Below, one piece after another: positions 1,574-3,493 of a DNA stretch of 39,959 bases. The position numbers and the translations under genes were made by a program. Below the pieces are notes generated by a model. It made no database searches and was not told the origin of the DNA. It was given only the letters and a program-made list of their open reading frames with translations. The stretch's first letter is position 1. Every line of letters starts with the position of its first letter. Source of the stretch: a bacterium (lineage in GTDB: Bacteria; Patescibacteriota; Microgenomatia; UBA1400; PJMF01); contig JAUNST010000003.1 in the NCBI GenBank assembly GCA_030539095.1, positions 1 through 39,959 on the forward strand, read 5' to 3'.

Positions 1574-1715
1574 ATTTATAACGTTAATTAAATTCTTGTA
1601 ATTTAATTGAAAATAGTTTTTACATGTTAGTAAATCCCCTTTGTGGGGTTGACCTAACTGACATAATTTACGCGATCTTCACTTCTTAAAGAACCTTTGG
1701 TTCTTTTAAAAGTCG
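1574..1715 (+). other. 23S-5S spacer with three hairpins
   Basis: About 140 AT-rich bases between 23S and 5S rRNA. Three inverted repeats are visible: AATTAAATT/AATTTAATT with a 5-base loop near 1587-1609, a GTTAG...CTAAC stem enclosing TCCCC/GGGG near 1626-1659, and AAGAACC/GGTTCTT near 1688-1706. These are probably rRNA processing signals (an inference). No tRNA or protein gene is present. Confidence 0.6.
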
Positions 1716-1898: not shown

Positions 1899-1927
1899 TT
1901 GACTTCAGTGCCATTATTTGATATAAT
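1899..1927 (+). promoter_or_regulatory. Strong sigma-70-type promoter 1
   Basis: TTGACT at 1899-1904, a 17-base spacer and TATAAT at 1922-1927. Predicted start of transcription is near 1934, giving a leader of about 200 bases before the first gene. Confidence 0.85.
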
Positions 1928-1933
1928 AAATGG

Positions 1934-2133
1934 CTTTTGACGTTTAAATCGAGTTTTTTCAAACTTTATTTTGAGCGTTAAAACAGTTCTTTAATTTTTT
2001 GGTGGTAAATTTTGTGGTCCAGGAAGAAAAAACACTAAACATGAATGTTTTTTCTTCCTGGACCAACGATCGCTAATGCCTGTAAAGGCAAGCAGCGAGT
2101 TAGGCAATCCAGGAAATGAAGGAGGAATTTCCC
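1934..2133 (+). ncRNA. Structured leader 1 with boxA-like motif
   Basis: In order: GTTCTTTAA (1987-1995), close to the rRNA antitermination boxA; a perfect 20-bp stem (2015-2034 with 2046-2065, 11-base loop) that begins TGGTCCAG and ends CTGGACCA; a second hairpin TCGCT/AGCGA with inner GCCT/AGGC (about 2070-2099); GTTAGGCAA; then TCCAGGAA (2108-2115), which repeats arm 1 of the big stem; then the AAGGAGG ribosome-binding site. The leader at 3247-3493 has the same order of parts with different stem sequences, so the pairing is supported by compensatory change. Candidate cis-regulatory RNA of unknown class. Confidence 0.7.
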
Positions 2134-2598
2134 ATGGAAATTGACTGCTCTAGTTACAGTCCGGTTTTATCTCGCGTCGTGGGAGCGATGAAAGAGATGG
2201 CACTTAGTGTGCAAGCAACTGGCTCCATCGTTGTAGCTATCAAACCGCAAGGGATGAGCTCTTGGCTGAGCATGACAAGTTATGTTGATCATACTAATCA
2301 GAATTATGATCAACCGACAATCTTTGCTGCTGCCAGTCTTAAAATGGCACGAGTCATGGAAACCGGCAAAACTAAGGCAAGCGATATCTACTGTCTCACT
2401 AATGACTATGGACGTTTTGTGATCGTTTTTCAAAGTGCTAAGCGCAACGAAAAAGACAGAGAGGTTTTAATCTCTGGGATGGAGGTGCTAACGCAGATCT
2501 TTGAGGAATTTGATCGTCTGTGTGGCGTCTTTATTGACGCGATTCAGGTGAAAAAAATGCCTCAGTTACTGGAGCTTTTCTGTCAGCACATGATTTAA
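2134..2598 (+). CDS. Small protein of unknown function, rrn-adjacent family member 1
   Basis: I do not recognise this protein. It has 154 residues and no signal peptide or membrane segment. I chose ATG 2134 because the in-frame ATG at 2116 contains the ribosome-binding site itself: AAGGAGG lies 7 to 8 bases before 2134. The C-terminal half pairs a strand-rich NDYGRFVIVF stretch with an acidic, lysine-rich helix rich in D and E. That layout resembles ENDYFIYVCIG plus helix in the next gene, so a distant common origin is likely but weaker than for genes 2 and 3. It is first in a two-gene operon behind a strong promoter and a structured leader. Codon use is richer in G and C than most of the window. 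Confidence 0.8.
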   Translation: MEIDCSSYSPVLSRVVGAMKEMALSVQATGSIVVAIKPQGMSSWLSMTSYVDHTNQNYDQPTIFAAASLKMARVMETGKTKASDIYCLTNDYGRFVIVFQSAKRNEKDREVLISGMEVLTQIFEEFDRLCGVFIDAIQVKKMPQLLELFCQHMI

Positions 2599-2620
2599 AG
2601 TGAGAGGAGATTGATAACAA

Positions 2621-3109
2621 ATGGTGACAAGGGAAATTCAGCCTGGAGAGGCGATGATTGCCTTGCAAACTTTGGCTCTCAAGCTTGAGCTAAAGATGAC
2701 CGAATTGGCACGAACTTATCAACTCAAAGAGTACCTTTACGCCTTTTTCGTCACTGACGAACTGGGGCAACAAAGTCACTCATTCGTCAGTGTTCGCCAG
2801 CGCTATGAATGCCAATTCGCTGACGCGCTCGATGAAGTAAATCGTGTCCTGGCGCGTTCCAGTCCGGAAAGAAATTTGAGCAATCTCCAATTTGGGCAAA
2901 TTGTCGCTTGTCAAAACAACAGTCTAGAACGAAGGATCGGCGAAAATGATTACTTCATCTATGTCTGTATTGGAAAAGAAGATGACGAGCAAAAATTGAC
3001 CGGATTACTCGACGAGCTCTACGAAGAGTTATTGGAAACGCTCGAGCCTACTGCAGCCAATAATCGCGACAGTCTCGTGGCAGCGGCTTTTCGATTACTC
3101 GTTCGTTAA
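2621..3109 (+). CDS. Small protein of unknown function, rrn-adjacent family member 2
   Basis: A soluble, acidic protein of 162 residues with no family I recognise. It starts 22 bases after the previous stop with GAGAGGAG about 11 bases before ATG, so it is co-transcribed with member 1. It aligns along its length with the product of 3494-4132: GEA/GEV near the N-terminus, EYLYAFFV against HYLFVFVV, GQ followed by a F-containing strand, CQNNSLE against CYKNTSLD, DELYEELLE against DKAYEQFLE, and a closing SLVAAA against TLVETA. The pattern suggests a compact alpha/beta domain. An intrinsic terminator follows 28 bases after the stop. Confidence 0.82.
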   Translation: MVTREIQPGEAMIALQTLALKLELKMTELARTYQLKEYLYAFFVTDELGQQSHSFVSVRQRYECQFADALDEVNRVLARSSPERNLSNLQFGQIVACQNNSLERRIGENDYFIYVCIGKEDDEQKLTGLLDELYEELLETLEPTAANNRDSLVAAAFRLLVR

Positions 3110-3137
3110 CTATCACCAAGAAATTAAGTTTATAAAT

Positions 3138-3163
3138 CCCCGCTCGTAAGAGCGGGGCTTTTT
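3138..3163 (+). terminator. Intrinsic terminator after family member 2
   Basis: A perfect 8-bp stem, CCCCGCTC/GAGCGGGG, with a GTAA loop (3138-3157), followed by C and TTTTT (3159-3163). It ends the first small-protein operon. Confidence 0.93.
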
Positions 3164-3190
3164 GTGCTAAAAATAAATTTGTATACTACT

Positions 3191-3204
3191 GGATAAATTT
3201 ATCC
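3191..3204. promoter_or_regulatory. Palindrome upstream of promoter 2
   Basis: GGATAAATTTATCC is a perfect 14-bp palindrome ending 7 bases before the -35 box. The same region of promoter 1 holds a related inverted repeat. Candidate operator for a shared regulator, or a symmetric upstream element. Confidence 0.5.
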
Positions 3205-3211
3205 TATAATC

Positions 3212-3240
3212 TTGACAAGTATCCATTTTCTTGATATAAT
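3212..3240 (+). promoter_or_regulatory. Perfect-consensus sigma-70-type promoter 2
   Basis: TTGACA at 3212-3217, a 17-base spacer and TATAAT at 3235-3240. This is full consensus and predicts very strong transcription starting near 3247. Confidence 0.9.
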
Positions 3241-3246
3241 AAGCGG

Positions 3247-3493
3247 ATTAATCAAGATAAACTCATTATTTTTGTTTAATGAAAGTTTGTTTTGAGGCTC
3301 TTTAATTTTGTTTACTATCACCAACCAAAACTGATTTGGTTTTTCTAAAAAACCTTTGGTCCAGACAAAAGAAGTTTTTAATATTTTAACTATTTTTCAT
3401 TAGAAGTTTCTTTTGTCTGGACCAACTCTTTGGCAAATGTATTTATACATTTAGCTAAATTTGTTAGGTAAACCAGACTGAAGGAGGAAGTTC
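3247..3493 (+). ncRNA. Structured leader 2 with boxA-like motif
   Basis: Same architecture as leader 1: GCTCTTTAA (3297-3305), nearly identical to bacterial rRNA boxA; a perfect 18-bp stem (3356-3373 with 3408-3425, 34-base loop) bounded by TTGGTCCAG and CTGGACCAA; a hairpin TTGGC/GCTAA with inner AAATGTA/TACATTT (about 3430-3456); GTTAGGTAA; CCAGAC (3473-3478) repeating arm 1; then AAGGAGG. It fills most of the 384-base gap between genes, which otherwise holds the terminator and promoter listed separately. Confidence 0.7.

Follow-up and report, generated by a model that had tools for sequence, protein, structure and literature searches.

Within a 39,959-nt stretch of a Microgenomatia genome (contig JAUNST010000003.1; hereafter the window), two structured leaders run from start sites near ~1934 and ~3247 to the start codons at 2134 and 3494 of short genes encoding orphan proteins. 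An earlier note, made from the sequence, regarded them as a candidate new cis-regulatory RNA. The locus raises the question of what kind of leader this is: an RNA peculiar to one pair of genes, a member of a wider class in related bacteria, or a variant of a system already known.

Architecture and ancestry of the two leaders

The leaders were found to share the layout first described for them, with every listed element in its place, from the boxA-like motif through a long stem and a second hairpin to AAGGAGG (Table 1). They are identical in GGTCCAG/CTGGACC, GTTAGGYAA, and CCAG, and the remainder has diverged to 54% identity. Compared with dinucleotide shuffles, the fold energies gave z -7.1 for leader 1 and z -6.8 for leader 2 (0 of 200 shuffles as good), and both long stems rank within the top ten ungapped inverted repeats of the whole genome. 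At 20 and 27 bp, both stems also reach the length (a near-perfect helix of at least ~20 bp) taken here as the mark of an RNase III stem.

Table 1. Features of the two leaders and the genes behind them, with positions in the window.
Feature	Position	Strand	Basis or remark
AT-rich element AAATTTATCCTATAA	1880..1898	+	upstream of leader 1 -35 box; alignment and sequence
Leader 1 promoter, TTGACT - 17 nt - TATAAT, extended -10 (TGA)	1899..1927	+	11/12 consensus positions
Leader 1 start-site hairpin, rRNA boxB position	1935..1983	+	folding; start site-to-boxA z -4.2
Leader 1 boxA GTTCTTTAA	1986..1994	+	sequence; 53 nt from inferred start site
Leader 1 long perfect stem, 20 bp, loop 11	2015..2065	+	folding; boxA-to-SD (Shine-Dalgarno) z -7.6
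Leader 1 second hairpin	2070..2098	+	folding
GTTAGGCAATCCAGG	2099..2113	+	common to leader 2 only
Leader 1 Shine-Dalgarno AAGGAGG	2119..2125	+	sequence
Orphan ORF 1, 154 aa	2134..2598	+	start 2134, not 2116
Orphan ORF 2, 162 aa, paralogue of ORF 3	2621..3109	+	local score z 7.7
AAATTTATCCTATAAT element (GGATAAATTTATCC inverted repeat)	3187..3211	+	upstream of second promoter; sequence, alignment
Leader 2 promoter, TTGACA - 17 nt - TATAAT, extended -10	3212..3240	+	12/12 consensus positions
Leader 2 start-site hairpin	3252..3295	+	folding; z -4.3
Leader 2 boxA GCTCTTTAA	3297..3305	+	sequence; 51 nt from inferred start site
Leader 2 long perfect stem, 27 bp incl. G-U, loop 16	3356..3425	+	folding; boxA-to-SD z -6.4
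Leader 2 second hairpin	3429..3459	+	folding
GTTAGGTAAACCAG	3463..3476	+	common to leader 1 only
Leader 2 Shine-Dalgarno AAGGAGG	3481..3487	+	sequence
Orphan ORF 3, 212 aa	3494..4132	+	behind leader 2

The inner stems had been described as differing in sequence yet perfectly paired, and this holds: among 20 aligned long-stem pairs, 13 are unchanged, two carry one-sided and five both-sided changes, and none is broken. The second hairpin likewise differs in sequence and is kept, with seven both-sided, four one-sided, and no broken pairs over the whole consensus fold of the two leaders. We judged selection on pairing by such counts over three homologous leader pairs. The two pairs beyond the window add seven compensatory pairs in sum and again none broken, namely a tandem pair in genome G002 (six both-sided and four one-sided changes) and the orthologous leaders of the same zinc-finger-like protein in two species, G005 and G006 (one both-sided change). 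Although the folds in these counts were derived from the compared sequences themselves, a bias in favour, it is still telling that no pair is broken between sequences 54% and 72% identical. The claim that an RNA structure is under selection is borne out by compensatory changes without broken pairs in the window pair and in both further pairs. The G002 tandem leaders (L152/L165; G002:C1:149633-150507) carry the Shine-Dalgarno inside the long stem (TTCTTCC..GGAGGAA) and precede two related membrane-anchored proteins.

Leader 1 is followed by ORF 1 and then ORF 2, and leader 2 by ORF 3; the start of ORF 1 is fixed by the position of AAGGAGG. No relative of any of the three ORFs turned up in the sets against which each was compared, drawn from Pfam, PHROGs, NCBIfam, 42 or 88 related genomes, GTDB contigs, phages, plasmids, and viral contigs. 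For ORF 1, the search without a match covered Pfam, PHROGs, NCBIfam, the 88 genomes of the order, and the GTDB genome contigs, and the fold predicted from the single sequence was unusable (pLDDT 43). ORF 2 and ORF 3 are homologous and diverged, with 0 of 500 shuffles aligning as well. Because of this homology, the leaders are taken to share a common ancestor, most simply by duplication along with the gene, and are one duplicated leader rather than two independent inventions.

The GGTCCAG stem ends, GTTAGG, and CCAG, put forward earlier as defining motifs, turned out to be private to the duplicated pair and absent outside it. A search of almost the whole genome (794 kb) for the GTTAGG...GGAGG element matched only the two window leaders, and the GGTCCAG stem was rejected as a family signature, with no equivalent in 88 relatives. 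These motifs could in principle belong to an autoregulatory or ligand-sensing leader specific to the pair, with the GGTCCAG-capped stem or GTTAGG...CCAG as the binding site for a metabolite or for the encoded orphan protein, as the identity of just these motifs amid otherwise diverged sequence and the homology of ORF 2 and ORF 3 might suggest. However, no such element is found in any other leader or relative, and recent shared ancestry may account for the identity of n = 2 sequences; we regard this reading as very improbable.

Recurrence of the promoter, hairpin, and boxA order

The element that recurs outside the window pair is boxA with a preceding hairpin and promoter; beyond the pair, leaders share order and structure and their sequences are not alignable. 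We scanned the own genome almost whole (794 kb) for strong inverted repeats and near-consensus promoters, and the series of promoter, ~50-nt hairpin, boxA, structured stretch, and Shine-Dalgarno was found about seven times in 0.8 Mb. Further leaders with the same order lie at L084:82, L088:930, L093:5763, L102:4465, and L113 (minus strand, 16210), and the own-genome leaders combine a near-perfect promoter with extended -10, hairpin, boxA, structured stretch, AGGAGG, and ORF. Before a PhoH-like protein (L078:9202), boxA lies at the start site with no hairpin ahead. Among 25 promoters with 12/12 consensus bases, seven have a boxA within 160 nt, against one for the reversed motif, and in the own genome alone the boxA 7-mer was not significant after correction for all 7-mers. 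In a fixed-window comparison within this genome, start-site hairpins behind boxA promoters were no stronger than those behind other promoters (p 0.35), and the same comparison of downstream structure gave p 0.025. The scan also revealed near-identical dispersed inverted repeats followed by GTCATCCTGTCC-type sequence (L078 14258-14342, L085 2852-2932, and L088 8920-9016), which are perhaps a small mobile or REP-like element.

Leaders related to those of the window, as the earlier note had expected of a real RNA class, were detected in several genera of the family. Using the pattern TTGAC-N17..19-TATAAT-N35..65-TCTTTAA and its reverse as control, we found 24 matches versus 2 in 88 genomes of the order and 21 versus 1 in the own family (42 genomes). 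Elsewhere in the class, beyond the order, it was not enriched (23 versus 16), and the claim is therefore confined to the order. The leader order is present in at least eight genera of the own family, before unrelated, mostly orphan genes. On inspection, many of the family matches were same-order leaders before unrelated ORFs, whereas others differed, among them a 16S rRNA operon and matches in or close to ORFs; counts of class members come from eye-checked lists and represent a partial census. A looser pattern added leaders in G003, G005, G006, G017, G020, G023, and G028, with five further genera. A pattern without the -35 box was discarded as uninformative (23 versus 17 for the control in the family); its matches were contaminated by tmRNA, and the control motif is itself about twice as common. 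Outside the own family, one class leader (L164, in G087) precedes a cold-shock-domain protein, and its boxA can pair with the Shine-Dalgarno over ~7 bp.

An independent test started from the shared promoter TTGACAAAARNCYYATARTRTGNTATAAT, with boxA left out of the query, in all GTDB contigs. The matches fell in 20 stretches, 19 of them in genomes of Microgenomates type that originate from goat jejunum and termite gut, and the other in a Blackburnbacteria genome; the kinship of the goat jejunum genomes was judged from leaders identical to those of G015 and G016. TCTTTAA follows 25-85 nt downstream in 9 of 20 promoters with enough sequence, where 0.10 would be expected (binomial 4e-16; the source genomes are few and the promoters not wholly independent).

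Upstream of leader 1, AAATTTATCCTATAA forms the right arm of an imperfect inverted repeat, ATAGGA...TCCTAT (1875-1895), and it also precedes leader 2, which was the only other occurrence in the own genome of this exact pattern with a -35 box (search allowing 3 mismatches). A TATCCTATAA / GCCTATAAT element, which in many cases belongs to an inverted repeat, was observed at 1875-1897 and 3187-3211 of the window and at many class promoters, either upstream of the -35 box or inside the promoter spacer. It also occurs in the L139 region, upstream of the G087 and G003 promoters, and as the spacer GCCYATAATRTG in G015/G016, and it may be the operator or UP element of a shared regulator.

Structure was assessed in 18 curated leaders chosen for a Shine-Dalgarno and ORF, not for folding. 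The interval from start site to boxA was more stable than shuffles in all 18 (z -1.7 to -5.7), and in 13 of them the distance between start site and boxA is 44-54 nt. Among 19 tabulated leaders, the interval from boxA to Shine-Dalgarno had z < -4 in 11, and about eight lack a long helix. Such folding raises the alternative that these leaders are mRNA stabilisers, in which long-lived mRNAs of abundant proteins owe their protection from exonucleases to a 5'-terminal hairpin and a long helix, with boxA incidental or a remnant. The ompA-type 5' UTR is a precedent for a leader that stabilises its mRNA. A hairpin beginning at the start site, helices whose sequence is free while pairing is kept, and strong promoters and Shine-Dalgarno sequences pointing to abundant proteins are all compatible with stabilisation. 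Nonetheless, it leaves unexplained why a 7-8 nt boxA identical to that of rRNA stands at a set distance past the hairpin before unrelated genes, and we consider this alternative unlikely, if worth keeping in view.

Candidate rRNA-type leaders on protein genes

The boxA of both window leaders fits the published core GYTCTTTAA (PMC5725501), with a 3' end of TT versus NA in that consensus, which is gamma-proteobacterial; the NA end is present in leaders O102, O113, G016a, G022, G023, and G087. The lineage's own rRNA carries the same boxA: GGTTCTTTAACAAGTG lies upstream of the 23S gene in the own genome, the 23S leaders of this genome and of G020, G018, and G003 carry GYTCTTTAANAAGT, and the 16S operon of family member G007 starts with a promoter, ~50 nt, and TCTTTAA. 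A gene for NusB is present based on an HMM search; NusG, S10, Rho, and RNase III are encoded, as judged by signature motifs found in ORFs of fitting length, and NusA was not confirmed.

Several observations concern the rRNA genes themselves. The 23S boxA region (GGTTCTTTAACAAGTGAAGATCG) is nearly complementary to a stretch after the 23S gene (CGATCTTCACTTCTTAAAGAACC; window 1673-1695 and L065 minus strand near 1850), which would place the 23S boxA within an extended leader-trailer helix. GGTCCAG was also considered as a boxC counterpart, given TGGTCCAGGA in the own 23S leader, and dropped, since it is absent from the 23S leaders of six relatives. The 23S gene is split over two contigs and is interrupted by an insertion that carries a small ORF for a GIY-YIG-type homing endonuclease (L065 (C27), minus strand, ~1110-830); homing-endonuclease insertions in 23S are common in Patescibacteria. 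Just upstream of the tRNA-Ala preceding 23S, an ORF with a strong Shine-Dalgarno and a hairpin leader (TTTTTTGGCT...AGCCAAAAATTG) was observed (L065 minus strand, 2870-2290). The 16S gene was not found in the assembly (G000), which is 96% complete.

We favour, at a probability of roughly 0.55, the reading that the window leaders belong to a class of Nus-factor leaders of the rRNA (hairpin-boxA) type that is specific to this lineage and stands before protein genes. The class layout would consist of a strong sigma-70-type promoter, a start-site hairpin, boxA ~50 nt in, a structured stretch that is often a single long helix, nearly perfect and about two turns in length, and a strong Shine-Dalgarno. 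On emerging from RNA polymerase, boxA would be bound by NusB-S10, which would build a Nus-factor complex on the polymerase and confer resistance to Rho, and this putative antitermination would carry the polymerase through a leader that is long, folded, and untranslated and on into the first part of the gene. The downstream helix may act as the rRNA leader-trailer helix does, shielding the leader and serving as a substrate that RNase III would cut, and the mature mRNA would then keep a short 5' end beside the Shine-Dalgarno; expression of these genes would presumably be high. This suggests that rRNA-type machinery also drives ordinary protein genes in gut-type Microgenomates. More tentatively, at somewhat under even odds, one Microgenomates family may possess a dedicated regulon of several protein genes per genome, on which miniature pre-rRNA leaders would impose Nus-factor control of the rRNA type; proteins that evolve fast and are specific to the lineage would thereby be expressed like, and possibly in step with, rRNA.

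A different role for boxA would be that of a translational switch, chiefly as an anti-Shine-Dalgarno, where NusB-S10 binding (or melting) frees the ribosome site, making the leader a sensor of free S10 or of the Nus complex. The minimum-energy folds of the two window leaders have the boxA region paired with the Shine-Dalgarno; with boxA kept single-stranded, the calculated accessibility of the Shine-Dalgarno goes up from 0.44 to 0.98 in one leader and from 0.25 to 0.94 in the other. The Shine-Dalgarno is also fully paired (0.00) in the G002 pair and in O93. However, most other leaders are unchanged when boxA is held open, shuffled leaders hide the Shine-Dalgarno as often, and boxA binding represses Escherichia coli suhB rather than opening it (PMC5725501). 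Such a switch is decidedly unlikely, and general masking of the Shine-Dalgarno was rejected as no stronger than in shuffled leaders; a boxA that hides the Shine-Dalgarno until bound would be a possibility special to the window pair. A competing-hairpin switch through a direct repeat of the stem 5' arm beside the Shine-Dalgarno (TCCAGGAA in leader 1) was likewise set aside (combined p 0.07, 19 leaders).

If the Nus-factor reading is correct, rRNA-type transcription would have been recruited as a general expression device in ultra-small host-associated bacteria. The class would then help to pick out, among the many orphan genes of Patescibacteria, those with heavy expression, and it would make the roles of the boxB hairpin and the boxA-proximal long helix open to testing.

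Comparison with known systems

The layout had been thought to belong to no known class, and this stands in part. No Rfam covariance model scored above its curated cut-off at the leaders, the matches in the window being rRNA and tRNA only, and the T-box model gave no match, in line with the earlier remark that T-box bases are absent. A promoter followed by hairpin, boxA, and long helix is, nonetheless, the start of an rRNA transcript. In the open-access PMC literature, we found no published description of this leader class and no paper on antitermination in Microgenomates.

Lambdoid phage nut sites also place a Nus-factor site at the start of protein-coding transcripts, but there boxA precedes the boxB hairpin and phage N is needed, whereas here the hairpin comes first and no phage gene is near. 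LoaP- or EAR-type leaders resemble the window leaders as structured leaders of protein operons thought to modify RNA polymerase, yet they have no boxA, and the window leaders have boxA and no Rfam match.

Repression by a boxA upstream of a protein gene has been described for suhB and others (PMC5725501), whose 5' UTRs share the core GYTCTTTAA with the present leaders. The suhB boxA is found close to the Shine-Dalgarno, where it represses translation, and the genes concerned are mostly those of Nus factors (PMC5725501); here, it lies ~50 nt from the start site behind a hairpin and 24-183 nt before the Shine-Dalgarno, at several unrelated orphan genes per genome. The window leaders, with 140 nt (leader 1) and 189 nt (leader 2) between boxA and start codon, fall outside the ~50 nt from the gene start that characterizes repressing suhB-type sites.

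In the E. coli rRNA leader, boxB, boxA, and boxC follow in order just past the promoter, boxA is necessary and sufficient for factor recruitment, and boxC sits within a 25-40 bp leader-trailer helix carrying the RNase III site (PMC10250234). The window leaders have the strong promoter, the hairpin in the boxB position, the boxA core, and the long helix of such a leader (PMC10250234), and their boxA is that of the lineage's own 23S and 16S rRNA. They differ in preceding a protein gene with a Shine-Dalgarno, with no rRNA downstream, and in lacking a recognisable boxC; the long helix of the class is local (loop 4-16 nt) and not closed around rRNA. No trailer partner was found for it, and Rfam places no RNA gene after either window leader. 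The resemblance of the window leaders is far more to an rRNA leader than to a suhB-type one. Nus-factor control by boxA is already known in rRNA, in lambdoid phages, and in suhB and a few other genes; the leader family found here, previously undescribed, places the rRNA front end in full ahead of unrelated genes, most of them orphans.
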